A stretch of 64,000 nt of DNA, taken from NCBI RefSeq assembly GCF_018342475.1, contig NZ_JAEMUD010000002.1, forward strand, positions 496,001 to 560,000, written 5' to 3'. This DNA is from Parachlamydia sp. AcF125. Lineage in GTDB: Bacteria; Chlamydiota; Chlamydiia; Chlamydiales; Parachlamydiaceae. This document shows, piece after piece, positions 31,754-52,700 of the stretch; position 1 is the first letter of the stretch; the number at the start of each line of letters is the position of its first letter. The notes below the pieces were generated by a model. The model saw only the letters and a list, made by a program, of their open reading frames with translations, did no database searches and was not told the origin of the DNA. The position numbers and the translations under genes were made by a program.

Positions 31754-34700
31754 TTATGTATTCTTAGTAGGACCGAGGCTATCTAGCTGTTTTCGCCATT
31801 TTACAAGCTCCAAAGGTAGCTTTTTTCTTATTTTCTTGTAGCTGAGCTTCAGTTTATGCCTGGAAGAATACGTGATTCTTTTGTCTGAAATTTGAAATCG
31901 TTGGCCTTTCAATGAGAGGCTATCCTCGGCAAAGAAACAAACCCTAGCGATTAAAGGAAATACCCTAATGCCCATTTTTAATAAAGCATTTCTATTGACT
32001 ATGGTCAGAATATGATAGGCAATATGCCTGTTGACAGCAGAAACATCCTCCTGGAGAATTTGGATAAGAGTAACTAGCCCTTCCTCAGGAAGCTCATCTC
32101 CTTGCTCTGCTACGACTCTTAAGACACTGGCAACACGCCATTTTTCATCAGAATCACCTTCCTTGAGAATTTGAATAAGAGCTGCTAGCACTTTTTTAGC
32201 AAGCTTGCCTCCTCGTTTTGCCACCGCTTGTAAGGTATCGATAGCACGCCCTTTGGGAACGTAATCTTCCGTCTGGAGAATTTGGATGAGAGCAACTAGC
32301 GCTTCTTTAGGAAGCTCATCTCCCTGCTCCGCCGCTGCTGCCAGGACATTGACCACACTCGTTTTGGTAAGAGAATCAGCCCCTTGGAGAATTGGGATGA
32401 CAGCAACTAGCACTTCCTTAGAAAGCTTGCCTCGGCTGTGCGCCGCTGATCCTAGAGCATGGATGACATAGTTTTTAGCCTCGGAATCTCCCTCCTTGAG
32501 AATTTGAATGAGAGCAGATAGCGCTTCCTTAGCATCCTCGCCCCTTTGTTTTACAGTTGCTGCCAAGGCATGGGCTGCATAACGTTTAGCATCACAATTA
32601 TTCTCCTTGAGAATTTGAATGAGAGCATCAAGCGCTTCTCTAGGAAGCTTGTATCCTTGCTGCGCCACTGTTCTTAGAGCATGAGCAGCATGCCCTTTGT
32701 CATCCAAATTGCCTTCTTTAAGAATTTGAATGAGAGCAGATAGCGCTTCCTTAGCAGAATTTCCTCCTCGCTCTACCACTGCTACTAAAATAGGGATAGC
32801 ATACCCTTTGGCCTCAGAATTATCCTCCTTAAGAATTTGGATGAGAACATCTAGCGCTTCGCTAGCTGAGTTTTCTTCCCGCTTCGCCAAGGCTCCTAGG
32901 GTTTCGATAGCACACCCTTTAAGAATAGAAGTGTCCTCCTTGAGAGTTTGGATGGCAACAACTAGCACTTCCTTAGGAAGCTTGCCTCCTTGTTCTGCTA
33001 CTACTCTTAGAACATTAGCAGCACGCCTTTTATGATCAGAATTACCCTTCTTAAGAATTAGGGTGACAGCAATTAACGCTTCGTCAGAAAGCTCGTCTCC
33101 TCGTTTTGCCACCGCTTGTAAGGCATCGATAGCACACCCTTTGGGAAGGGGATCTTCCGTCTGGAGAATTTGGATGAGAGCAACTAGCGCTTCCTTAGGA
33201 AGCTCATCTCCTTGCACCGCCGCTGCTGCCAGGACATTGGCCACACTCGTTTTGGTAAGAGAATCAGCCCCTTGGAGAATTGGGATGACAGCAACTAGCA
33301 CTTCTTTAGAAAACTTGCCTCGATTGTGCGCCGCTGTTCTTAGAGCATGGATAACACGCTTTTTAGCCTCGGAATCTCCCTCCTTGAGAACTTGAATGAG
33401 AGCAGCGAATGCCTCTTTAGCATCCTCGCTTTTTTGCTGTGCTGCTGTTACCAGAGCATCGGCTGCATAAAGCTTAGCATCAAAATTATTCTCCTTGAGG
33501 ATTTGAATGAGAGCATCTAGAGCTTCCTTAGGAAGCTTGTATCCTTGGTGTGCTATTGCTTTGAGGGCACTGGCAACAGATATTTTGACACCAGAATCAC
33601 TCTCCTGGTGTATTTGAATAAGAGCATTTAGCGCTTCACTGGGAAGTTTGCATCCTTGGCACGCCAGTGCATAGATAGCATACCTTTTGACCTCAGAATT
33701 ATCATCCTTGAGGATTTTGAGGAGAACATCTAGCGCTTCCTTAGCAAAATTACCTCCTAGATTTGCCCCTATCCCTAAGGCACGGATAGCATGCCTTTTG
33801 GCCTCAGAATCGTCCTTCCTTAGGATTTGGAGGAGAATATTTAACGCTTCCTTAGCAAAATTGTCTTCTTGGCCTATCATTATTCCTAGGGCATCGGCAA
33901 CGCACCTTTTGACATTAGGATCGCCCTCTTCGAAGACTTGGGCAAAAACATCCAGCATTTTCTTAGCAGAATTGCTTTCTTGACCTGTCATTATTCCTAG
34001 GGCATCGGCAACACGCCTTTTAGCATTAGAACCATCCTCTTGAAGAACTTGCGGAGTTGGCGCCTTCTTAGGAAGCTTGCCTTCGATCTGTGCCACTGCT
34101 CCTAGGGCATCGGCAATATGCATTTTGGTATGAAAATCGTTTTCCTGAAGAATTCGAATGAGGGCAACTAGCGCTTCCTTAACAAATTCCCCTCCTTGGT
34201 CTACTATTGCTATCAGGGTAGAGGCAGCAGAATCTTTCGCAAAGCCACGACTCTCGCTAAGTATTTGAATGAGAGCATCTAGAGCCTCCCTAGCAAATTC
34301 GCCTCCTTGATTTACCATCACTGTTAAGTCAAGGATAACACGACGCGTGATAAAAAAATCGCTCTTATTGATGAGAAGTTGTGTAAGAGCGGTTATAGCT
34401 TCCTTAGCAAGCCTGCCTGCTTGCTGTGCCACTTTTCCTAGAACACAGGCAGCAATATTTTTGGCAGTAGGATTACCCTTCCTAAGGGCTTGGATGAGAG
34501 CATCTACTGCTTCCTTGGCGAATTTACCTCCTTGTTGTACCACTTCTCCTAAAGCATCGGCAGCACAACTTATGGCAACTACATCGCCTTCCTTACCTCC
34601 CTTAAGAATTTGGATGAAAGCATCTATTGTTTCCTTAGGAAGCTCTTCTCCCTGCTCTACCGCTGCTTTCAAGATATATCCAGCATTAGTAGTAGAATCG

Positions 34701-37237
34701 TCATCAGAATTCTTAAGAAATTTAGTAATAAGCCTTACTATTTCAGGAGGTAACTTTTGCCCTGTTCGCATGATCTGTCCTAAATTGCTTAACACATTTT
34801 CTTTTGTCTGAGGGTTGGATAACAATTCTCCGATGGCGTACATTACTTTAGGATGGTTAAAAAGGTTTCTATTTCTGATTAGTCGTCCGAAGTCTAAGCC
34901 TAAAGAGGAGAGACACGTAATATAGCTCTCCATGAGCTTAATAAAACCTGTATACTGCCTCACTATAGCAGGATTTTGGCATTCTTCAAAGCACTCTGCA
35001 ATCAAATTAAGTTCGCTTCTGACTGCTAAGTCATGAGGCTCAGAAAAAAGGTCATCGAAGAAGGACTGGAGGACACCCGAATTCAAATACTTCCGATCGC
35101 TTGATGTAGCGAGGGAAAGATAGCCAGCAATCATACGCAAAACTAGGCTATAGCGGGGTTCAAACTTATACTGCCACACAAAGTTTTGGCATGCTTGCCT
35201 TTCTCCTTTAAGATATTGCTTGGCAACTTTTGAAGCGGTTAGAAATTCTTGAAAAGTTAAGTGAATAAAATACCCTTTTTCTTCCGCTTCGGGGATGCGA
35301 AGAATTCCACAATCAGTAAGCTCATGGGACGAGATTTCATTCTCTTTACTAAAGCGGACGATTTCTCGTTTGTTCAAATAAAGGGTGTCTTTTTCCATGG
35401 CAAAATTGGCCATTTCTTCAAAAGCGGTGGCAATTTTGCTAACTTCTGAATTTTGGCGCAGGTTTTCTTCTGTTAAAATGTGCTCTTGAGTTGGGCTAGA
35501 TGGATCCTGGCCAATTCTTCGTAACAAAAACCGCTGATACATCCAGTTAATCATCCGCTCATAAATGGCAGTCATCGTAATGGGATGGTTAGAATCAAAA
35601 AATTTTGGGTCTTCATGAAAGAGACAGCACAGTAAAATTAAGAGCATAGGAATGCGGGCAAGACTTGAAACTTGGGGAGAACTCTTTAAGAGGAGACGAA
35701 GCTTTTCTTTTTTCTCTTCGGCTTTGTCTTGTGTGAAAAATTTATCGATATAACAATCGACTCCTTTTTTATCAAAACCTAGAAGCTCCAGATCACAAGA
35801 GCGTTTAAAAAAACATCTGCCAGGCCGTGAAGTGATTAAAATATGAGGAAATAATTCTTTTAGCTCCTTAAAAGCTGTAGCAAGGCTGCTATTACCTTGG
35901 GCACCTGCTGAAAGCTCATCATAGCCGTCTAAGATAAGCAAAGTTTTTTCCCGAAAGGCGGGATCTTTTAGGCAAAAGTCGATGACTCTGCGATCAATTT
36001 TGCCTTTATATTCTCTCGCAATCAGATCTGCTGGAGTGTAATCTTTATCCTCGGGATATTTACTTAAGGTCAGATTTCTTAAGGGAATCCAAAAAAGGCA
36101 GGCAAAGATGCCTTGCCAAAGCTCTCCTTTTGCCCAACGGTAGCTAATATAGTGGCATAGGGTACTCTTACCGCTTCCAGCAGAACCTTGGAGGTAAATT
36201 TTTTTAGCATTTTCTTTTTGAAGGCTTTCGTGCTCAAAGAGCTTTTCAAGTTCAATCTCCTGCTTAGGCTCGAAGATGGTTTCATAAGTTGGAATACGCT
36301 CATCTTGAGTATAATTAGAATGCTTATCCAAAGCTTGATCGCGGGTTTTTCTTTCTTTATTTTCAATAATACCTAAACGCACATAAATTTCTTCTAACCG
36401 GACTTTAAATTCCCCCTCTTGCGGCGTTTTAATTCTAAAAATGGAAATAGTTTTTTGAGAAAGGTAATGGTTTCGAAGAAAGCTTACGAGATATTCTGGA
36501 TCTAGTTCTGCCTGCGATAAGGACGGCCCTCCATTATATTGAATAATAGTTTGTACATTTAGCTTAGCTTTTTCCTCTAGGTAGAAATTTTTAGCGCTAG
36601 CTCGTGGGGTGTTAAACGCAAATTTGGTTTGTAAATCGGGCCCCAGGCTAGGTTCACAGTAATCAGGATTACCAAAAGAAGATTGTTCTGCTAGGCTAAT
36701 TACTTTTTTCTTATGCTTTTTTGCTAATGCTAATTTTAGAGCTGTTTCTGCCGGATAGCCTGCAGCAACTAAGGCTCGAGAATGCTTTTTGTAAACCCCT
36801 CCCTTTGCCCTGGCTTCGCTTGTACCCAGTACTAAGCTTTCTGCATGCTCGCCTACCTCACGATCTATGTCTATAGCGATCCCTTTCCTGGTAGGTTTAG
36901 GAGGCCTAGCACTTTCAGTAGGCTTTGGAGTAGAAAGAGGAGTTGGCTGAGCAGCCACAAGCGTGGCATCTGCATAATTGGGTCTACCCTTAGTAAAATC
37001 ATAGATTGCGACAAGAATGTTTCCTATCACAGGGATTAGCAGTACAATACAACGAGAAAAGCTTTTTTGCTGTAAATGCGCGTAGTAATGATTTTTTGAA
37101 ACATTTACTTTTTGCTTCCGTGAAAGCACCACATATTTTTGGAATAAATCAATCAAATTAGTTAGGGTACTTATCACAGGGATATAGTCAGATACTTGAT
37201 CTGCTTTTAATAAAAAGTTAACATTTTTTATCGGCAT
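31754..37237 (-). CDS. NACHT-HEAT STAND-type NTPase, 1827 aa (copy 5, dispersed)
   Basis: Fifth family member, separated from the main cluster by about 14.6 kb. Architecture is the same: MPIKNVNFLLKADQ start, hydrophobic segment near residue 60, linker with AAGYPAET, LEEIYVRLG, NACHT with Walker A GSAGSGKST (about 350-358), LLILDGYDEL and ITSRPG, HLTFQEFL, about 25 HEAT-like units (about 829-1752) and a C-terminal cap ending in a KWRKQLDSLG sequence. The NACHT core is nearly identical to copies 1 and 3. In contrast, the His-rich HVHS motif of the other copies is replaced by LNVQTIIQ, and the array has diverged most (FAKEAL-type unit starts, one 34-residue unit). The promoter spacer and -10 are also more divergent. 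The ankyrin gene lies upstream on the same strand, 201 bp away. Confidence 0.9.
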   Translation of the reverse strand: MPIKNVNFLLKADQVSDYIPVISTLTNLIDLFQKYVVLSRKQKVNVSKNHYYAHLQQKSFSRCIVLLIPVIGNILVAIYDFTKGRPNYADATLVAAQPTPLSTPKPTESARPPKPTRKGIAIDIDREVGEHAESLVLGTSEARAKGGVYKKHSRALVAAGYPAETALKLALAKKHKKKVISLAEQSSFGNPDYCEPSLGPDLQTKFAFNTPRASAKNFYLEEKAKLNVQTIIQYNGGPSLSQAELDPEYLVSFLRNHYLSQKTISIFRIKTPQEGEFKVRLEEIYVRLGIIENKERKTRDQALDKHSNYTQDERIPTYETIFEPKQEIELEKLFEHESLQKENAKKIYLQGSAGSGKSTLCHYISYRWAKGELWQGIFACLFWIPLRNLTLSKYPEDKDYTPADLIAREYKGKIDRRVIDFCLKDPAFREKTLLILDGYDELSAGAQGNSSLATAFKELKELFPHILITSRPGRCFFKRSCDLELLGFDKKGVDCYIDKFFTQDKAEEKKEKLRLLLKSSPQVSSLARIPMLLILLCCLFHEDPKFFDSNHPITMTAIYERMINWMYQRFLLRRIGQDPSSPTQEHILTEENLRQNSEVSKIATAFEEMANFAMEKDTLYLNKREIVRFSKENEISSHELTDCGILRIPEAEEKGYFIHLTFQEFLTASKVAKQYLKGERQACQNFVWQYKFEPRYSLVLRMIAGYLSLATSSDRKYLNSGVLQSFFDDLFSEPHDLAVRSELNLIAECFEECQNPAIVRQYTGFIKLMESYITCLSSLGLDFGRLIRNRNLFNHPKVMYAIGELLSNPQTKENVLSNLGQIMRTGQKLPPEIVRLITKFLKNSDDDSTTNAGYILKAAVEQGEELPKETIDAFIQILKGGKEGDVVAISCAADALGEVVQQGGKFAKEAVDALIQALRKGNPTAKNIAACVLGKVAQQAGRLAKEAITALTQLLINKSDFFITRRVILDLTVMVNQGGEFAREALDALIQILSESRGFAKDSAASTLIAIVDQGGEFVKEALVALIRILQENDFHTKMHIADALGAVAQIEGKLPKKAPTPQVLQEDGSNAKRRVADALGIMTGQESNSAKKMLDVFAQVFEEGDPNVKRCVADALGIMIGQEDNFAKEALNILLQILRKDDSEAKRHAIRALGIGANLGGNFAKEALDVLLKILKDDNSEVKRYAIYALACQGCKLPSEALNALIQIHQESDSGVKISVASALKAIAHQGYKLPKEALDALIQILKENNFDAKLYAADALVTAAQQKSEDAKEAFAALIQVLKEGDSEAKKRVIHALRTAAHNRGKFSKEVLVAVIPILQGADSLTKTSVANVLAAAAVQGDELPKEALVALIQILQTEDPLPKGCAIDALQAVAKRGDELSDEALIAVTLILKKGNSDHKRRAANVLRVVAEQGGKLPKEVLVVAIQTLKEDTSILKGCAIETLGALAKREENSASEALDVLIQILKEDNSEAKGYAIPILVAVVERGGNSAKEALSALIQILKEGNLDDKGHAAHALRTVAQQGYKLPREALDALIQILKENNCDAKRYAAHALAATVKQRGEDAKEALSALIQILKEGDSEAKNYVIHALGSAAHSRGKLSKEVLVAVIPILQGADSLTKTSVVNVLAAAAEQGDELPKEALVALIQILQTEDYVPKGRAIDTLQAVAKRGGKLAKKVLAALIQILKEGDSDEKWRVASVLRVVAEQGDELPEEGLVTLIQILQEDVSAVNRHIAYHILTIVNRNALLKMGIRVFPLIARVCFFAEDSLSLKGQRFQISDKRITYSSRHKLKLSYKKIRKKLPLELVKWRKQLDSLGPTKNT
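31982..34753 (-). repeat. 111-bp tandem repeat array with an 888-bp internal duplication
   Basis: About 25 HEAT-coding units. Five consecutive units at 33535-32981 recur in the same order at 32647-32093, exactly 888 bp (8 units) apart. Shared landmarks include KEVLVAVIPILQGADSLTK and ALVALIQILQTED. The units towards the NACHT side (34753-33650) are older, more variable in length (34-40 codons) and less alike. Confidence 0.88.
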
Positions 37238-37438: not shown

Positions 37439-38104
37439 CTATAAGCCATAAAGCATAGAAAAATGCGATGATGTAACCCCTTCCAAAATCCTCCTTCTTA
37501 ATTTGATGTAATCTAACAAGTACTCAACACTTCTTTCATTTCCGGCAAATACAACTAAGGGTAAAGGTGCCTGTTTTCCACCGTTTTTAGCTTCCACAAG
37601 GATAGGATGGTATCGCAGTAAAATGTGAATAATATCGATGCGATTGTTTAGCGAGCGACAAGCGTAATTCAGAGCATTATATTGAGAGCTATCGAGTTTT
37701 TTTACATCTGCATTTTGGTTAAGCAAAAATTGCATAATAGGCATAGATCCACTCTTGTTAGCAAAATGTAAAGGCATTTCTTTAGTTGCTTTTCCTGCTA
37801 AAACGCCGCGGCGAGATTTTATATTTTGACTTCCAGCGAAGAGATACATAAGAATATTTAGATATGGCCGTGCGGCGAAATAATAGATTAAGTTTTCTCC
37901 CCTTTTCTCTAAGCTGCCTGGGTATTCATCAAGAGTTTCTCGATCAAACCTGTATTCTCGCATGTTAAAAGCAAAATATAATTCATAGGCGGTGCTTAGA
38001 TAAAAAAACCCATGTAGAGAGGCTTCCTTTTTTGCCTCTCTTAAAAATTTGTATCCTTGCACAATTAAATTTTTATGCAGCTGGGGCGCTTTAGTTGCAG
38101 CCAT
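37439..38104 (-). CDS. Ankyrin-repeat protein
   Basis: 221 residues. About three ankyrin-type repeats occupy the second half: MPLHFANKSGSMPIMQFLLN (about 111-130), then YNALNYACRS ... IIHILLRYHP, then APLPLVVFAGNERSVEYLLD. The first half (residues 1-100) is helical and unrecognised. No signal peptide or membrane segment. Ankyrin proteins of intracellular bacteria are often type III or IV effectors that bind host proteins. That is a possibility, not shown here. The start codon has only a weak AAAGA upstream. Confidence 0.8.
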   Translation of the reverse strand: MAATKAPQLHKNLIVQGYKFLREAKKEASLHGFFYLSTAYELYFAFNMREYRFDRETLDEYPGSLEKRGENLIYYFAARPYLNILMYLFAGSQNIKSRRGVLAGKATKEMPLHFANKSGSMPIMQFLLNQNADVKKLDSSQYNALNYACRSLNNRIDIIHILLRYHPILVEAKNGGKQAPLPLVVFAGNERSVEYLLDYIKLRRRILEGVTSSHFSMLYGL

Positions 38105-38197
38105 TCTTTAGCCATTTACCCTGATAAACTAGAGGCTGTGGTCGTATGATAGTGAAAAACGGAGATAGATTGTATAGTCTGCTGAGAATATTGCCCT

Positions 38198-38348
38198 AAC
38201 CGGATATTTTAGCACTAGCCTGGGGATTGACAAGCCCAGGCTTAGTTGGCAAATCAAAATAAAGAGCCATAGAAGGCTCTTTAAGGCTATGTTCATAGTC
38301 ATAGCCAGGCTCTCTAAGAGAGCCTGGTTTGATAAACTACTTAGTTGG
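38198..38348 (-). pseudogene. Decayed NACHT-family linker downstream of the 757-aa gene
   Basis: Directly after the TAG stop of the gene at 38349-40622, the same reading frame passes a second TAG and then reads YDYEHSLKEPSMA ... GLVNPQASAKISG before a third stop. In the intact NACHT-HEAT proteins the matching order is DCCEHSL ... ALNSPQASAKNIYL. The DNA around 38200-38255 also resembles 5445-5495. This is therefore a remnant of the NACHT-family linker, collinear with the C-terminus of the upstream gene. It explains most of the 244-bp gap. Confidence 0.7.
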
Positions 38349-40622
38349 CTATTTTCTTTCAAATGCCATTGCTGTTATTTCTCGGAATGTTTCTCCGGAA
38401 TAACCTGCGGCAATTATAGATAGAGACTCATCTTCCTGAACCGCATCGCTTGCCGATACTTCCGTTGCGCCCATCACCACGCTTTTTGCATTTTTACCTA
38501 GCCGACGGCCTATATCCTCAACTCTTCCTTCTCTACCTGTAGAAATCTCTTTCTTGGTAGGCTTAGGAGCCTTAGGAGCTTGAATGGGCTCTGAACGGGA
38601 GGTAGCAGAGGCTGAACCTTCTCCCTCTGGTTCTTTAGCTTCATTTCGCAAAGGAATCCGTGGGTTTTGTCCCCATAGATATCCCTTTTTCTCTAGTCTA
38701 GAAGCGTAAACCAAACCACTTAATTTAGCGCTAAGCGATAAATAAAGCCTTTTTTCGTTTTCAAAGTAATGCTTTTTTTCCTCTTCAGTCGAAAAAGGAT
38801 ACAACTTTCGAATTAACTCAAGCGTTTTTTCAGGCTTTTTGGCATCTGAAATAGAGTTGTCCGCTTTGATGCGATGGACAATTTCTGCTTGGTTATTTAA
38901 AAGGGCTAACTCTTCCTTTTTTAAGGTGGAATAAGCGTTTTGCCTTACCTGCTTAGATTTAAGATAGCTAAATTGGGGAAGATTCTTTCTTTTTTTCCCT
39001 TTTGCTAATGCTTTTATAATCTCTTGAGGGAATTCAGCTTGATGCCCACTAAAGACTAAGTTAAAAATCCGCTGACCATACTTGGCGGTATAGTAAGCCA
39101 CCTCTTCAGGAGAATAATTTTTATGAGTTAGTTCTTTAGTATGCAAAAGCTTAAAGCCTACTTGCTGCAAGGCCGAGCCCAACAGGGTTTGTTGGGTGAT
39201 GGCAAGGTCTTTAACACCACTTTGCCCATTTACCACATGGTAAACCGCTGAACGACACACATAGGCCTCGTTGGCAAATGTGCTGGCTAAGATTTGGTGA
39301 AGATGGTAGTCTGTTTGCAACTGAGCGATCTTTTTAATGTTTTCACGCAGAGAATTTTGCAAATCCTTGCATTTTTTTTCTAATAAAGCGCATTTCTTTT
39401 TCTTTTTTTCGATCAGTTCTTGGGTATCTTCATCATCAATACTATGATCGTATTTATTCAAGACAGCTAATTCCTTATCTAATGCTTGCCTTGTTGCCCT
39501 TAATTCCTTTATTAGAGGTTCTTTATCTCTCTTTAAAGCTAGGATATTTCCACGGCAGGTCGTAGATTTCTCTAAATACTCCCCATATAGCCTGTTAAGA
39601 GCCGCGACTGTCATATCTTGTTTGCGTACTGGTAAAGAGTCTAATTGCCTTAACTCCTGAATTTTAGAATTAAGTTCGGTTGTATGGTGGAGATGTAAAT
39701 TCTCTACCCCTTGAAAAATGGTCTCATAGTCCTTCTGGCAAAGTGAAATATGGGTTTTTAAGCCATCCTCATGCAATTCTGCAGAAAGTATTTTGTTGAG
39801 TTTTTTCTGAGCCAGCTCTTTAAATGCTTGCCACTCCTCTTCTTCCAAACTAAACCGGAGAGAAAATAAACTCGCAGTTATTTCTTGCACGTGTTTTTTA
39901 TATTTATATTCTTTAAATATTTGAGTAAATTCTTCTTCCGAAAAAAGCCGCTTCCCTTGAATTAAGGGATTATTTTCTTCATCGTGCAGAAATTTCGGAT
40001 AGTTTTCTTGATCGTTTGCTAACGTATCGGTATAGGCATTTGAATCTCTTTGAGAAGACGAAGTCATCTTAAATAGTTCTTCGGCAATTTCATAGAAGCC
40101 CTCAATCACAGCGTTCGTGATGCGACCTTCAAAATCGGGACCTCCATTTTTGACTCTTACGGCTGCATGCTCGAAGAAAGAATCTTCTCCTTTAAATGCA
40201 CTAAGAATAGAAGTGTCAATATCGGAAGTTAATTTGCGGCTTCCTGGAGCTTTAATCGCAATTTTGCACTCTTGCGTCTTTTCTAAGCCTGCAGGCAGCC
40301 GAGCTGTTTTCTGCGTGACTACAAAATGATACCATGTGGCCGTGAAGTTATACCCGCCGGTCGACGTTTTTGCTATGTTACCTGCTATTTCGGCAGCTAA
40401 ATTGAAATAAGCCGAGGGAAATATTCTTAAAATCGCCTCTCGGTAGCTGGCATAGTCGACTATATCGCGGTCCTCTATATGTTCTTGCATCTGCTGTGCA
40501 GCTTGCCCTTGAGAGCCATCTGACCGTATAGTCAAGACGTACTTTCTCTTAAGGGTTTCCCAATCAGTGTCTCCTAATTTTTCAAACCTTTGGATCGCCG
40601 GAAAATCTTGTGAAATAAACAT
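38349..40622 (-). CDS. 757-aa protein with NACHT-family linker at its C-terminus
   Basis: Main body unrecognised. Residues about 120-150 contain GSRKLTSDIDTSI, which resembles the GS...DxD metal-binding motif of nucleotidyltransferases with a short spacing. Residues about 360-455 form a charged coiled coil (KRDKEPLIKEL ... EKKKKKCALLEKKCKDL). The last 75 residues (PKPTKKEI, RVEDIGRRLG, SVVMGATEVSA, SIIAAGYSGETFREI) match the linker of the NACHT-HEAT proteins block by block (PKPTR.GI, DI.RELG, S.VLGT.EARA, LVAAGYPAETA). In the NACHT proteins the sequence continues; here it stops at a TAG followed by decayed homologous sequence. The gene may be a chimera or a truncated family member. There is no signal peptide and only a weak Shine-Dalgarno (AAAGA). 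Confidence 0.8.
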   Translation of the reverse strand: MFISQDFPAIQRFEKLGDTDWETLKRKYVLTIRSDGSQGQAAQQMQEHIEDRDIVDYASYREAILRIFPSAYFNLAAEIAGNIAKTSTGGYNFTATWYHFVVTQKTARLPAGLEKTQECKIAIKAPGSRKLTSDIDTSILSAFKGEDSFFEHAAVRVKNGGPDFEGRITNAVIEGFYEIAEELFKMTSSSQRDSNAYTDTLANDQENYPKFLHDEENNPLIQGKRLFSEEEFTQIFKEYKYKKHVQEITASLFSLRFSLEEEEWQAFKELAQKKLNKILSAELHEDGLKTHISLCQKDYETIFQGVENLHLHHTTELNSKIQELRQLDSLPVRKQDMTVAALNRLYGEYLEKSTTCRGNILALKRDKEPLIKELRATRQALDKELAVLNKYDHSIDDEDTQELIEKKKKKCALLEKKCKDLQNSLRENIKKIAQLQTDYHLHQILASTFANEAYVCRSAVYHVVNGQSGVKDLAITQQTLLGSALQQVGFKLLHTKELTHKNYSPEEVAYYTAKYGQRIFNLVFSGHQAEFPQEIIKALAKGKKRKNLPQFSYLKSKQVRQNAYSTLKKEELALLNNQAEIVHRIKADNSISDAKKPEKTLELIRKLYPFSTEEEKKHYFENEKRLYLSLSAKLSGLVYASRLEKKGYLWGQNPRIPLRNEAKEPEGEGSASATSRSEPIQAPKAPKPTKKEISTGREGRVEDIGRRLGKNAKSVVMGATEVSASDAVQEDESLSIIAAGYSGETFREITAMAFERK

Positions 40623-41572: not shown

Positions 41573-42115
41573 TTAAGCATACATGAGGAATTCCATTTTT
41601 TTGAGGCGTTCTTCTGCTTCTAACCAGGGAAGACGGCTCCCATTCTCAAACATATTGCGATAAGCCAACCTAGCAATCTCTGTGGTAATAATTTCACCTT
41701 TTACCAATTGTTCTACAAGCCAAACGGTCCCATGGCATTCTACTCCATATGTCTCAGCTACTTTGCGAAGATACTGATCGCCCGTTAACAACATCGCCTG
41801 TTTTTCTTGCGCAAGAACTAGGGCAAATAAATCCATTTTGCTAGGTTTAGGATGGAGTTGCGACAGGCGGAAAACCTCTGCCACAGCTTTAGACGGTAAG
41901 CTGCACAGTTTTAAACCCTTACTCATAAAGTGGGAATGATGTTGTCGAAGTTCCTTTTCGAAAAGAACATCTGGTATGCAATATTCAACCTCTGGCAAAC
42001 AAAACATGGCTGATTCTAGGCCGCCCAGTTCCATATCGATGATGACATTGGCATCGCTAATTGCTATAGCTCGATGTATGTTTTCACCATTGCTATTGAC
42101 GCTGTTTGTATTCAT
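41573..42115 (-). CDS. PIN-domain protein, probable toxin
   Basis: 180 residues with a PIN-type RNase pattern: D21 and D27 in ISDANVIIDMEL, a central acidic position near E54 in FEKEL, D95 in KMDLFALVLAQ, and D113 in LLTGDQYLRKVA. These are the acidic residues expected to bind the metal ion. PIN proteins cleave RNA and commonly act as toxins. The start ATG lies inside the end of the XRE-ImmA gene (23-nt overlap, AGGA 7 nt upstream), which implies translational coupling, with the regulator first and the toxin second. The C-terminal 45 residues (from about 135) are helical and may contact the partner. The RNA target is unknown. Confidence 0.85.
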   Translation of the reverse strand: MNTNSVNSNGENIHRAIAISDANVIIDMELGGLESAMFCLPEVEYCIPDVLFEKELRQHHSHFMSKGLKLCSLPSKAVAEVFRLSQLHPKPSKMDLFALVLAQEKQAMLLTGDQYLRKVAETYGVECHGTVWLVEQLVKGEIITTEIARLAYRNMFENGSRLPWLEAEERLKKMEFLMYA

Positions 42116-43160
42116 CGATCATCCTGAAAACCCTGAGCTGATCAAGGGAGATATTGAGTAATTCGGCCGCTTTCGACTCACTGATATAAGATTCCCCTAA
42201 TGCGTGGAATAGCATTTGCTCAAATATATGCGCTTCATCGGGGGGCAATTGCGGATCAGGCTCTTTCTTACGCCATCCCCTATGAATGAGGTCTCTCCTA
42301 AGAAATTGAAAATAGCTTTCGCTGATAACCTGCGCCTCTTTTAGCCGATAAGAAATTGCCGCCATACTAAGTCCATATTTATACTTAGCTAAGGACAATT
42401 CTTTCCACTCGACTGCACCGCGCTTTTCTCCAAATTCTTGAATTACCGAGGGTTTAGGAAACAAAAATGCTCCTGCAAAACGATGACAGGCTTTTTCTTC
42501 ATCCATGTCAGCTGGAATCTTATCGTGCAGAAAAAAATGTCCTAATTCATGGGCTAGGTTAAATCGTTGTCTATCCCCTGGCCAATATTTGCTAATCACA
42601 ATAAGGGGCTCTTCGTGGACAAAAGCAAATAAACCATCAAAGTTTTTTTCCTCAATCTCTAACCGTATGACCCGAATTCCTTGATTTTCCATCACGTCGA
42701 TTAAATCGTGAATGGGGGAAAAACCAAGCTTCCAATCCTCTCTTATTTGAAGGGCAACTTTCTCTATATCTTCTAAAGAGTTAATTTTTATTAAGGGAAC
42801 TTCATTTGGGTTTAAAGGACTTATAGGAGGGATAGGATAACAATGTTCTAATTCTAAGCGACGCTCGAGCTGATCGCGAATATTAAACTCAATTGCTTTA
42901 AAAGCCTTAACTCCTAACGCAGCTTTCTTTCTAAATTTAATTTCTCCTAAAGAAACATTTTGCGAGCGAAAGAGATGCTCTAGTGAAATCTGAAGGGAAT
43001 TTGCGATTTCCATCAACACATCTGAAGAGGGAAAAATTCTTCCAGTCTCATATTTTTGAATTGCAGTTGCGCTCACTCCCACTTTTTGGGCTAAAGTCCT
43101 AAAGCTAAAGCCTGCAGCTAAACGAGCCTGGTTTAAACGTATGCCAAATAGATTATCCAT
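42093..43160 (-). CDS. XRE-family regulator fused to ImmA/IrrE metallopeptidase, probable antitoxin
   Basis: 355 residues. The N-terminus is a helix-turn-helix of the XRE type (GIRLNQARLAAGFSFRTLAQ, then VGVSATAIQKYETGRIFPS, residues 6-48). Residues about 130-240 form the ImmA/IrrE (COG2856) peptidase, with the zinc motif HELGH at 204-208 and the downstream DEEKACHRFAGAFLFP. A C-terminal helical part extends from about 245. Such fusions are known either as stress-responsive regulators or as the antitoxin half of predicted toxin-antitoxin pairs. The overlapping PIN gene favours the latter. The Shine-Dalgarno AAGGAGA is 10 nt before the ATG and abuts one arm of a perfect inverted repeat, suggesting autorepression. 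Confidence 0.9.
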   Translation of the reverse strand: MDNLFGIRLNQARLAAGFSFRTLAQKVGVSATAIQKYETGRIFPSSDVLMEIANSLQISLEHLFRSQNVSLGEIKFRKKAALGVKAFKAIEFNIRDQLERRLELEHCYPIPPISPLNPNEVPLIKINSLEDIEKVALQIREDWKLGFSPIHDLIDVMENQGIRVIRLEIEEKNFDGLFAFVHEEPLIVISKYWPGDRQRFNLAHELGHFFLHDKIPADMDEEKACHRFAGAFLFPKPSVIQEFGEKRGAVEWKELSLAKYKYGLSMAAISYRLKEAQVISESYFQFLRRDLIHRGWRKKEPDPQLPPDEAHIFEQMLFHALGESYISESKAAELLNISLDQLRVFRMIDEYKQRQ

Positions 43161-46788: not shown

Positions 46789-49700
46789 CTAGTTCAATTG
46801 AATGAAACCGACAATCTCCCCCTTTTGAAACTCAGGCTTTAAATGGTATTTATCGACAAGTATTTTTAAGGCATGTCTCAGAGCCTTTTTATCCATAAAA
46901 ATTTTTGTCCACTTCATGAATAAGCTTTCTAACAATGCCCTATTTTTCTCTCTCTTAGTAGGGACTTTCATCACCCAGCAGATATAATCACTTATAAGTG
47001 TCATCTTTTTTAAAAAAGTTTCCTCTAAGATAGGAAAATCCATTTTTTTAATAATGTCCAAAAGTTGATCAAACAGATAGCACCCCTCCTCAACCCGTTC
47101 TAAAAAAGCCCCTGACTGCAGAGCGTGATATAAAAATACGAAAGCCTCCTCAAAGTAAGGCAAAAACTCGTCTGAACTCCACTCTCCTCTCTTTTGAAAT
47201 AAATAGATCCAGAGATTAAATGTTTCCATAAACAATCTATGAACGGTCTCTTTGCCTTTTTCAGTTTTCTCAAACATTTTAACTGAAAAGTCAGGATTGC
47301 CCGTTAAAACTTGCGTAAAATAAAAAATCTCCGTTTTGTCGTCTATCATGTTTAGCCCTTCATTTTCTAGGAAATCCCCAAAAAGGCGATAGCACCTTAA
47401 AATTAAATCATACCCCTTTTCCCCCCTTTTGAGGAGGATATCCTGAAAGTATCTCAGTAATTCAAATCTTTGAAAGCAAGGAAAGGATTTTTTGCTTAAG
47501 GTTAGTTTAATAAAAGCTTCGATTAAAATATTTTCAGCGCGGCACAGCTCCTGCTCGCTAATTTTGCCCTTTTTTTCGGTTTGCAGCCTATGCAAGATTT
47601 TATTCTGCTTTTTATTTCTTAACGGCTCTCCCTCCCAAAATATTTTTTCAAATGTTTTTAACCACTCCTTTATTTTGCCTAATTTTAAAATTTTTTCCCG
47701 CTGGGAAAGTTTTAGGGGGGGAGAATCGTAGAAATCTAGAAAAAGTAGAGAAATAAACTCATTAAACAGCTCGAAATCTCCCCTGAGGCACATTTTAAGG
47801 GTTTCTTCTCCAAGGCTATCTAAATAAGGAGAGAATTTCTCGTACTGTTCGGCAAAAATCCCCTTCATAATGGCTTTAGAAAGCAGAAAAGCCTTTATAT
47901 CCCATAATTCATTTGAACAGTTTCTAGAGGACAAAACATTAAAAAACCTGTCTAAAACTTTTAAACATAGCTCTTGTCCATCTTTGGTTCCGTCAGCAAA
48001 CACAAAAAAGCTTTGGGAGGCATCAATGACAATCTCTCCATTGGGCCGAAGAAGGACGCTGGGCGTAAATACCACCTCAGTAACTTCATCAAATAATTCA
48101 TGCCGGTTTGCACTCTCTAATACCCAATCAAGGCATTCAAAATAATTCTCCATGCTCTCTTTTACTAAAGTTCGGCTGTAATTTTTAAAAGCTAGAATGC
48201 TTTTTAAGCTGCTTTCTTCATCTGGCTTATTCCTCAGCATCTTAATTGCCTCTCTCACTATGCCAGCCACTTGTGCTTGGGATAAGGAAAGTTTTTCAGG
48301 AAAAGCACCCTGCGCGTAAAAATATATTTTACAGAATCTCTCAACGTCTGCTTGAAAATAATGGTTTTCTTCAATAACCCCTATCACCTTCTCTAGAGAA
48401 TGAGGAAAACGGCTATGGTTAAAACAGATAAGCTTTTCCATTAAATGGAAAAGGACCTTTTGGAGATAAGTCTCAATATGGGGGTCATGAGGATAAGGAT
48501 TCTGCGGATAAAGATCCCAAAGAAGGCTCGTAAACCGAGTCAAATAATAAGAAAATGTTTCATAATAGAGGGAGGGAAAATCTCCTGCCGAAAAACAGCT
48601 GAAAAAAATATCGGTAAATTCAAATAGGCGTAAAAACACCGGCGGATCTAAAAAATAGGGAATCGGTTTGGGAATAACCTTTTCAACCTTTATTAACTGT
48701 TCAGAGTTTCTGTTAGCTAACGATGAGTGGTAATCAAACAATACGTCTAAAAGAAAATAAGCCCGTTCTTTTTTCTTTAATTTTTTTCTATATTCTAAAT
48801 AACCATCGTAAGGAGTTTGTTTAAGCCATAGGTATAACATTAGGTTAAAACATTTTATAAAAGTGCTTTCTTTAATCGGGTTTTCTCTATTATTTTGAAA
48901 AATATTTTTAGCAGCATTTGCTAAACAAGTCCTTCTCTCGTTTGGAAAATTCTCAAATTTCAAAAAATGTTGATAAAAAAGCTCAATGGCATACACATGT
49001 TTTTTTTGAAGCAATCGGGTAATCCATTCGATAATGATCTGATCGGCCTGCTCTTGGGTAATCACACGAAGGACTAAAGGACTTTCTAATAAGTTAAAGA
49101 GAGGCTTTGTGAAGGATTCATCCCACGAAGTAATTTTTTTGCTCCATCGCTGGAAAATGGAGTAACATTCCGCTCCTTTAGCACAAAAAAGAACATCCTG
49201 TAATGCAGAAAATTGCCTTCTAATTGCCATATTAGGATGGGTCAAACATGCCTCCGCGATTGGCTCAACGAATTGAAGCTCTCTTTTTGAAGAGTAGAGG
49301 TGTAAAATTTTTAAAATTTCCTTAATCAACGCCCGGTGATTCACATGCTGAGCTTCATGCGAGCGCTCTAGCAAAATAAGAAGGCATTCTTCCTCTTGCA
49401 AACAAATCTTCTCTTTTTCAAACCGTTTTAACAGCGCTTGAGCTCCCTTATAAACTTTTCCAATTTTTGGATGCTTAATCCGCTTTCTTATGGGAGAGAG
49501 AAAACTTTTATGCTGGTAGAGGTATAAATAAAAATCCTCTTTTTGCCTGCTCAAACTTTTATCTGAGAAAAACCGAGCAAGAAAAGGATCTTGTTCCCAT
49601 TGATACGCATCAAAAGTTTTATCCTTTTCAAATAAGGGCAGGCAATTTGATAAACAAGCTGCCTTTTCATGAGGGTATTGTAAAAGAACATCCTCTTCTA

Positions 49701-52700
49701 TCACTCTTTGGCGAAAAATTTTAAGAAAATTTTCCTGTATAGCTGTAGATTGATTTCGATTTATTTTTTCGATCAAATCTAACCAGTAAAGCGGTTCATT
49801 TAACTCGCCTATTGCCAAAATTTGGAGATAGAAGTTTAGATCGTTCGCGTCTTCACAAGCAGAAAGTAAAAACGGGCGTACAAGCTCAGAAGCGTGTAGC
49901 ATCAAATCTGTGATCACTTGATGGCCACATTGTTCAATTAAAAGGTAAAGAGGGGCGAGTTTTTTTTGCCTTAAACAGTGTTCTGCCAAAATTTTCCAGG
50001 CAAGATCGCGGCTTTCTTGCTCTTTCCATTTTTTTTCGTAAAAAAATTTTAACAGAAAATAAAACTCCGTTTCAGAGGACAAGTCTAAACAACAAGCCAA
50101 CTGAATGCATATCTGGATAACGGCTGGCGATGGCTCCGAAAAATGCCCTAAAAAGTGCTTGATCCAGAAAAGGGCAAAAGGGATTTGAGACACCTCTAAC
50201 AAACGTGAGATCAACATCTCATAAATTGCCGGATTAAAGAGGGTGGGACCTTTTTTCTCGGTATACTCTTTCCACAAAGAATGGAAAGCTAAAATTTCTT
50301 CCGGATCGCAGGACACCTTTAAAAATTTTAGGGACCAGCGATTCATTTTTTTTAAAAAAATATCTGACTGAGGCTGCAAATACTGATGGGCAATCATTAA
50401 TTGAACGATCTTGGCGAATATCGTTTTAGCAGGTAATTGGAGGCAAAACTCTAAGATATTTAAATTTAAAGTTTTCAAACATTTCTCCAACTCAGCGGGA
50501 ATACTCTTAAAAGACAGCACAGTTTCTATACAAAATAGCGCCTGTTCAAAGCTTTTTTCCGTATAACTTTTAACAAAAACTTCACGGACCAAAAGTCCTA
50601 ATAATTTCAAGTGCGGCCTTGTAAGCTGATCTATAAGGGTTTCCCCTGCTAAAATTTGAAAAATTTGAAAAATCCACCCCACTTTTTCCTGTTTATCTTC
50701 TTCAAAAAGCTCCGCAAATGCCCTAAGGGAAAGAAGCTTAATCAGAGAATCGGCTAATTTTTTATTTTTTAAGCTCTCCGGGCTTCCCAGAACTCTTGAG
50801 AAAAATAGCCTAAAAAATTTTTGCCGAATGGAACGGTTAAATTTAAAAATTTTTACCAAGCTATCGGCTGCTTGGGCGTAATGCCCCCTATCAATTTCGA
50901 ATTGCAAGGCATTGAGAAAGATTTCTTCCTGATCTTTCTCTGAAAGATAAGGGTAATAGGATGGGAAAGGAACGCTCATGGCAGTCACACGCTTCCCTCC
51001 TCCCCTGATAGCCTCGGCCACCAGAGCGGTAATCCGAGAATCTTTTTGAGAATGAGAACAAATAAAATTCAAAATCTCATTTTTTTCCACATTCCACGTT
51101 GAGCCCTTATCTTTAAATAAATTTTCCGCCAAGGAGAGGATTAAAGGTAAATTTTGTTGATTCCACACCCCCCATTTTTTCCCTTTTTCCCAAAAAGAGA
51201 TAGCTCTAGGTAGGTCTTTTATTTGAACCAGTCTGCTGAAAAAATTATTCCAAATGAAATGATCGGAAGGCCCCCAAATTTTTTGCTCCATTAAAAAAAA
51301 CAAAAAACTACACCCAAATGAATAAGATTGTTTTGCTAGAAGATGTTCAAAAATCTTTGAAAAAATTCGATTATTTTGCGCTCGAAACCTTGCCCGATGT
51401 AAAATCAAATCTCTTTCTTTGAAGAGAGAAAAAGAGATTTTCAAATGCTCGACCAGAAAGGGAAACCTCCCTTCTAACAAGGCTTCTGTTAAATCCAAAA
51501 ATAACTGATAGCGGGATTCTAACTGTTCAACAGGCAAAGAACAAAGCGATCTATACAAATCAAAAGCACATTTTACATCTAGCTGGATCAGTTTATAGAT
51601 CATCGGAATATAATCACTTTCTTTTTGCTTTAAAACCGTGCGATCTTTTTTCCAGATTTCCGTTACCAATTGATAAGCTCTGGGGCTTTGAATGCCAATA
51701 AGAGCCCATACCCAAGCCACTAGGGGAGAAGCACTGTGACAATAACTTTGAAAATGATCATACATGACTCTGGCAGTACTGGCCCAAGGCTCACATCGGG
51801 AGTAAATCAACAAGTTTACTAATTGCGTTCCCATTAATTTTTTTCTTAAAAAATCTTTCTCCGCTTCAAATGCATAGGCATACTTCTTTAGAAGAAGCTC
51901 TAAACCGCAAGTTAAGGGATTAGAGGTCTGACAGGCTGCTAAAAGGTGATAACTTAAAAGAAAGCTAAACGAGTGTTTTTCAAATCCCTTAAATTGGATA
52001 GCCTCCGCTAAGGGGGTCAACAAAAAGGATAAATAATGAGCATAATCAGAAAGTTGAGAGCGTTCATTCCAATTAAAAGCATTTAAAGGAAAATAGGCGT
52101 TAAACACTTTTTCAAGATAGGTAACACTCGAAGACCCTCTTGCAATAAGCTCTAAACACAAATGATAGCCTGCGCAAGGTTCTAATGAAAGGAAAATAGT
52201 TTTTCCATCTTCTTCAATTTTAATGGCGGGAGCGCCTTCATGCTTAGTTAAAACAATGCTCAATTTCTCATATTTAAAAATTGGCCGCTTTACGCCAAGA
52301 GCTAGGATGGCAAAACATTGCTGAACTTGCATCACTTCTTGAAACGATAACCCCCATACCAAGATCCCTTCTTGAATTAAAGAGAAAATCGAGAGGGAGT
52401 TTTGATAGCTTGCGTTAGCAAGAAGCGTGAGGCAAATTTGGTCTAATTCCTCAGACCTTACATGATGCCTAATGCTCCAGCAAACATTATAAGCCATTGC
52501 CAGGCGCATTTTTATCTCATGTTCTTCATATTTATTCTGGTATTCTAAGATGGCAGAGGTGACCCTTTCTACCGCATTTCTCCCTTTTTCACTCAAATAA
52601 TGGTTGCAAAATTGCCAAATCAAACTTTTTTGCATGCATACGTCGGAAGCCATCCTGAATCCCCCTCCATAATCTCGCCGTCCTTCAGAAATAAGGGCAA

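Follow-up and report, generated by a model that had tools for sequence, protein, structure and literature searches.

The linker at the end of the window gene

Why does a 757-aa protein end in a segment that resembles the linker of NACHT-HEAT proteins, and what became of the reading frame that appears to continue behind its stop codons? These questions are raised by a gene in the window examined here, a stretch of 64,000 nucleotides (C2:496001-560000 of its own genome, G000). An earlier note on this DNA had recognized linker-like blocks at the C-terminus of the gene and CEHSL- and PQASAKI-like sequence in the same frame past two TAG codons, and had proposed that either a former fusion to a NACHT-type protein was truncated or a mobile linker became attached to different heads. 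The parts of the gene are as follows.

38349-40622, minus strand: 757-aa ORF, composed of a head and a linker tail, with the C-terminus APKPTKK...RRLGKNAKSVVMG...IIAAGYSGETFREITAMAFERK
38643..40622, minus strand: head, about residues 1-660 of the ORF, with the invariant motif GSRxLxSDxDTSI
38352..38579, minus strand: linker tail, the last 76 residues of the ORF, homologous to the NACHT-HEAT linker

When the whole genome was searched with these last 76 residues, 25 matching segments were found. One is the linker of the NACHT gene of the window (36728-36931; 36% identity, E 4e-8), and numerous further NACHT-HEAT proteins are represented as well. The likeness is therefore far beyond chance, and sequence comparison confirms that the resemblance described in the earlier note reflects homology between the tail of the ORF and the NACHT linker. 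Both TAG codons (38351-38349 and 38339-38337, minus strand) are present as well, and past them the 0 frame reads FIKPGSLREPGYDYEHSLKEPSMALYFDLPTKPGLVNPQASAKISG*, with the CEHSL- and PQASAKI-like sequence that had been noticed there.

Elsewhere in the window, neighbouring ORFs of 2285 and 2220 aa (46789-60420, minus strand) are apparently relatives of each other, with common LTKHEG.PA.KI-type stretches, and a 180-aa ORF overlaps one for an HTH protein of 355 aa in which an HELGH motif occurs (41573-43160, minus strand), perhaps as a toxin-antitoxin-like or regulator pair.

Distribution of the head and of the NACHT-HEAT family

The genome of the window contains 14 head loci, as detected with query residues 1-642. 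Four of them are truncated by contig ends; the head repeat breaks the assembly there, which leaves the real number of copies uncertain. Head copies lie at the contig ends C2:1, C3:1, C4:1 and C8:1 of G000. One head locus each occurs in two other genomes, G002 and G031, from another genus of the same family, and among 234 genomes of the phylum the head is present in these 3 only. Single-protein and alignment scans detected no relatives of the head in the wider genome contigs, and there was no match to it among the plasmids searched. Pfam, NCBIfam, PADLOC and PDB also gave no match for the head, and AlphaFold2 returned a pLDDT of 40 for a single head sequence. Residues G127, S128, R129, L131, S133, D134 and D136 are invariant in 11 heads. 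We take the motif to which they belong (GS...DxD) to recall nucleotidyltransferases, a reading for which no significant match was found in Pfam, NCBIfam or PDB.

About 28 copies of the NACHT-HEAT family are encoded by the genome of the window. At ten loci (A, C and E to L), distributed over three genomes and two genera, an ORF for the head and linker is followed by an ORF in the -1 frame, and at loci B and D what stands in front of such an ORF, instead of the head, is a shorter N-terminal module carrying the same linker. The -1 ORF codes for NACHT-HEAT in all of these split loci except D, in which the NACHT part has decayed. One head (C2:74427-76346) lies in a single frame of 2624 aa that leads from the linker through an ankyrin module into NACHT, and this fused paralogue aligns colinearly with the product that a -1 shift would give in its closest relative. 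The description of the 757-aa protein as unrelated to NACHT was consequently wrong, as the head regularly adjoins NACHT-HEAT and is once fused to it in frame; the longer forms continuing into NACHT that the same note had envisaged do exist, as the 2624-aa ORF and, by way of a -1 frame transition, at ten loci.

Two other members of this repertoire deserve mention. A NACHT-HEAT family member of G002 (contig C22; L064:4521-9150, plus strand) is encoded in one frame and has, by motif, a trypsin-like protease N-terminus (GTGFLIGPGLLLTNNHV ... GSSGAPV). A 265-aa ORF (L027:3805-4602, plus strand) carries a short N-terminal module, two tandem linkers and a C_CCA_AAG junction, downstream of which the NACHT part has decayed.

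The split and fused forms are intermingled on a tree of NACHT sequences, which suggests sequence exchange between copies or repeated changes of state. Exchange of N-terminal parts would also be in keeping with the second proposal of the earlier note, in which the linker would be a mobile or targeting (secretion) module in its own right, placed on different heads, and so would the tandem linkers of the 265-aa ORF. What stands of that proposal is that the linker is found behind two different N-terminal modules; every linker seen, however, fronts the same NACHT architecture or its remnant, and no mobile-element feature or targeting signal was found, so that we regard an autonomous module as improbable.

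The junction between the two reading frames

The junctions were compared at 12 split loci, two of them in the other genomes. All 12 have their downstream ORF in the -1 frame, where it is open through the junction, and because the stop upstream of it sits 7-49 nt before the head stop, the two ORFs overlap. The heptamer C_CCA_AAG occurs just before the head stop in 8 split copies (...CCA AAG TAA), and A_AAA_AAA occurs inside a run of nine A in 4. A review describes C_CCA_AAG as strongly prone to shifting in E. coli (PMC5009743). At L028 the two ORFs overlap by no more than the 7 nt of C_CCA_AAG, which the -1 stop directly adjoins, so that a shift would be possible only at the heptamer. The codon ahead of CCA is AGC, CAC, ATC or AAC; its first two bases vary and the amino acid changes with them, while the third base is always C, for which the usage in the genome set is 0.31, 0.30 and 0.31 for His, Ile and Asn, respectively. 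The long ORFs examined, 69,113 codons in all, contain six in-frame occurrences of C_CCA_AAG, and five of the six are junctions of this family. A Shine-Dalgarno (SD)-like sequence lies upstream in most copies with C_CCA_AAG and also in fused copies. The slippery site is not confined to one genome, its junction being kept in G002 and G031, and it is missing from the window copy and from L030, both of them head copies that lack NACHT.

Since the latter two copies are truly decayed and some of the heads are situated at the ends of contigs, the frame breaks might be viewed as pseudogene scars or assembly errors that were spread by duplication. This explanation is extremely improbable in our estimation, because twelve intact copies share the -1 register and the heptamer and have a downstream ORF that stays open for 600-1777 codons, and because the same arrangement recurs in the two other genomes, one of which is assembled in 2 contigs.

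The stem-loop downstream from the junction

Most split copies have a hairpin that starts about 6 nt after the heptamer. The stem is stronger than in synonymous recodings of the -1 peptide in 9 of the 12 split copies (about p 0.05 or better), copies F, G and I being those in which its strength is not significant singly; the combined p of 1e-9 (identical copy dropped) is, like the other stem p-values, only indicative, because the copies are related, may exchange sequence and represent few independent events. Thirteen fused copies exhibit no excess of stem strength over synonymous recodings (combined p 0.21), and the folding energies of split and fused copies differ (p 1.3e-4). When ten copies are aligned, the 11 stem pairs are formed in 89% of cases, and four of these pairs have changed on both strands of the stem; covariation is limited, and shuffles lend it moderate support. 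An RNA model of the junction recovers the family sites in the genome of the window and in both other head-bearing genomes. A further match to this model (L076:1510-1545 in G029) is an intergenic terminator-like hairpin that we take to be a chance match. As there is no T-run after the stem in the family, its interpretation as a transcription terminator was ruled out.

Transcriptional slippage, or phase variation of the DNA, could restore the frame where A-runs exist, and the four split copies with nine-A runs ahead of the stop would offer the opportunity. C_CCA_AAG alone, without any long homopolymer in or near the overlap, is present in several copies, among which are L028 and the two from the other genomes, and the stem-loop suits ribosomal frameshifting, all of which makes this route very unlikely.

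Does the downstream reading frame have its own start?

Possible starts in the -1 frame lie 53-206 nt past the head stop, at positions that are not homologous between copies, and are mostly GTG or TTG; for one ORF the first of them is a TTG located 206 nt on. An SD match of more than 3 bases is lacking at nearly all of them. To judge from these candidates, the -1 ORF is without a credible start of its own. Among the 50 codons past the head stop in the twelve copies (600 codons, including the stretch past the possible starts), there are 0 stops in the -1 frame, as compared with 24 and 79 in the other frames. Ahead of the first possible start, amino-acid constraint is visible in diverged pairs, and the pooled pN/pS there, 0.56 versus 0.76 in shuffles (68/1000), is a modest indication when taken alone. 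The in-frame fused paralogues code for the same peptide in one frame, with TCC CAA GTA AGC-type sequence in place of the heptamer.

These observations can be weighed against the possibility that each split locus consists of two genes in one operon, in which NACHT-HEAT would be started independently or by re-initiation, with the heptamer and stem being incidental or serving re-initiation. The head-linker and NACHT ORFs do adjoin, and some ATG, GTG or TTG is available to every -1 ORF within the distances given above. The non-homologous positions of these codons, the preponderance of GTG and TTG and the near absence of SD sequences speak against their use, however, and the -1 ORF is open back beyond the head stop in every copy. 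Moreover, the peptide shared with the fused paralogues is encoded upstream of those starts, and the fused copies are without C_CCA_AAG and nearly always without the stem. We therefore consider an operon of two separately started genes to be unlikely.

The window gene as a decayed copy

In the intact relatives the heads also end at the same stop, and NACHT follows in the -1 frame behind the heptamer and stem-loop, a point that was not in the earlier note. The corresponding DNA of the window has the following features.

38337..38362, minus strand: degenerate junction GAAAGAAAATAG, then the second TAG, without a slippery heptamer
38305..38327, minus strand: hairpin CCAGGCTCT-CTTAG-AGAGCCTGG, directly 3' of the stops
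38071..38336, minus strand: decayed continuation (CEHSL...PQASAKI segment and what follows it), homologous to the -1 frame of relatives, over two frames
37439..38104, minus strand: 221-aa ankyrin ORF, left over from the ankyrin middle module found ahead of NACHT in relatives
31754..37237, minus strand: neighbouring gene, an in-frame fused form of 1827 aa with a short N-terminal module, linker, NACHT and HEAT repeats

The -1 frame of the window copy shuts after 3 codons, and its hairpin is placed as is the stem-loop of intact relatives and has a different sequence. From about 38323 to 37511, the DNA of the window can be aligned over about 800 nt with the DNA past the head ORF of relatives, at 68-72% identity and with 7-10 gaps, as a result of which the continuation is split over three frames. 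The homology runs on in other frames into the 221-aa ankyrin ORF, which the earlier note had not included, and stops near 37451. The NACHT NTPase domain is absent from this relic, and NACHT-HEAT is missing before the next gene start at 37237. In the genes neighbouring the relic, PF05729 (NACHT) scores 70 bits against a cut-off of 26.7, and HEAT repeats are C-terminal.

The window gene is best read as a decayed family member that has lost the slippery site, had its downstream frame broken and had NACHT-HEAT deleted, and for these reasons the copy can make the head-linker product only. The first proposal of the earlier note, that the gene was once joined to a NACHT-type protein and then truncated, is borne out by the relatives that continue into NACHT-HEAT and by the frame-breaking indels in the segment that was kept. 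Orthologues in the two other genomes do end at the same point, which that note had expected to count against truncation if the DNA behind them were unrelated; their downstream DNA is related, and the truncation idea therefore survives. The dN/dS of the window head against its relatives, a measure in which branch-specific selection is not separated, is about 0.15 and not above that of intact pairs. Hence the head is apparently still under constraint, and a head-only product may remain useful.

Proposed mechanism and its significance

We think it quite probable, from comparison of these sequences, that programmed -1 ribosomal frameshifting makes two products in this family, a head-linker protein and a head-linker-(ankyrin)-NACHT-HEAT fusion, and that the window copy is a decayed member. 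A ribosome would read the head and linker up to C_CCA_AAG (or A_AAA_AAA) near the end of the ORF, where the majority would terminate at the head stop and release free head-linker. The stem-loop just downstream would hold some ribosomes, which might move back by one base and continue translation in the -1 frame until the full protein is complete. For L028, the predicted junction peptide is ...NSPK-VSSPSELGPTDGVNFCEHSLK, and the masses expected for the two products are about 85 and 280 kDa. We infer both the occurrence of slippage and its rate, and likewise its purpose, which might be to set the ratio of free versus receptor-linked head.

Somewhat more tentatively, we favour the broader interpretation that about a dozen loci constitute a family of NLR-like receptors in which frameshifting would give free head and head-linked receptor from each mRNA, the ratio being set by translation. 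The head might then be the effector of the receptor, as the NACHT and HEAT domains and the trypsin-like relative in G002 lead us to suppose.

Most known cases of programmed -1 frameshifting in bacteria come from mobile elements, phages and a small number of housekeeping genes. In the open-access literature searched, we found no report of frameshifting in NACHT proteins, and nothing relevant on NACHT together with chlamydial names or on frameshifting together with defence. If the proposal is true, standard annotation divides such NACHT receptors into two parts and overlooks their N-terminal heads; about a dozen sites in one genome, with C_CCA_AAG as well as A-runs, would form together with the fused paralogues a natural set for the study of frameshift signals; and a balance between free and receptor-bound head becomes a testable idea.

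Comparison with known systems

In E. coli dnaX, a -1 frameshift takes place at A_AAA_AAG with an upstream SD-like stimulator and a downstream hairpin. The junctions described here are similar in having a heptamer near a stop, a downstream stem-loop and often an upstream purine-rich stretch, with two products predicted per mRNA. The dnaX shift, however, leads to the shorter product, whereas here it would lead to the longer one, with a whole receptor appended; moreover, the heptamer is mostly C_CCA_AAG, and about a dozen loci exist in one genome. As in the frameshifts of insertion sequences and phage tail-assembly genes, a -1 shift at a heptamer would join an upstream ORF into a longer fusion, but the proteins concerned are NACHT-HEAT receptor-like ones and there is no transposase or phage gene.

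Like the bNACHT proteins (PMC12169576), members of the family combine a central NACHT with C-terminal repeats and an exchangeable N-terminal part (a trypsin-like protease in G002). They differ in their very large HEAT arrays, ankyrin insert, 640-aa head without a family match and putative frameshift junction. Among the expanded protein families of the Parachlamydiaceae, one has DUF294, a putative nucleotidyltransferase, and the main text of that report mentions neither NACHT nor HEAT nor frameshifting (PMC4209131). The family described here resembles those families in being a lineage-specific expansion of large multidomain proteins (PMC4209131).
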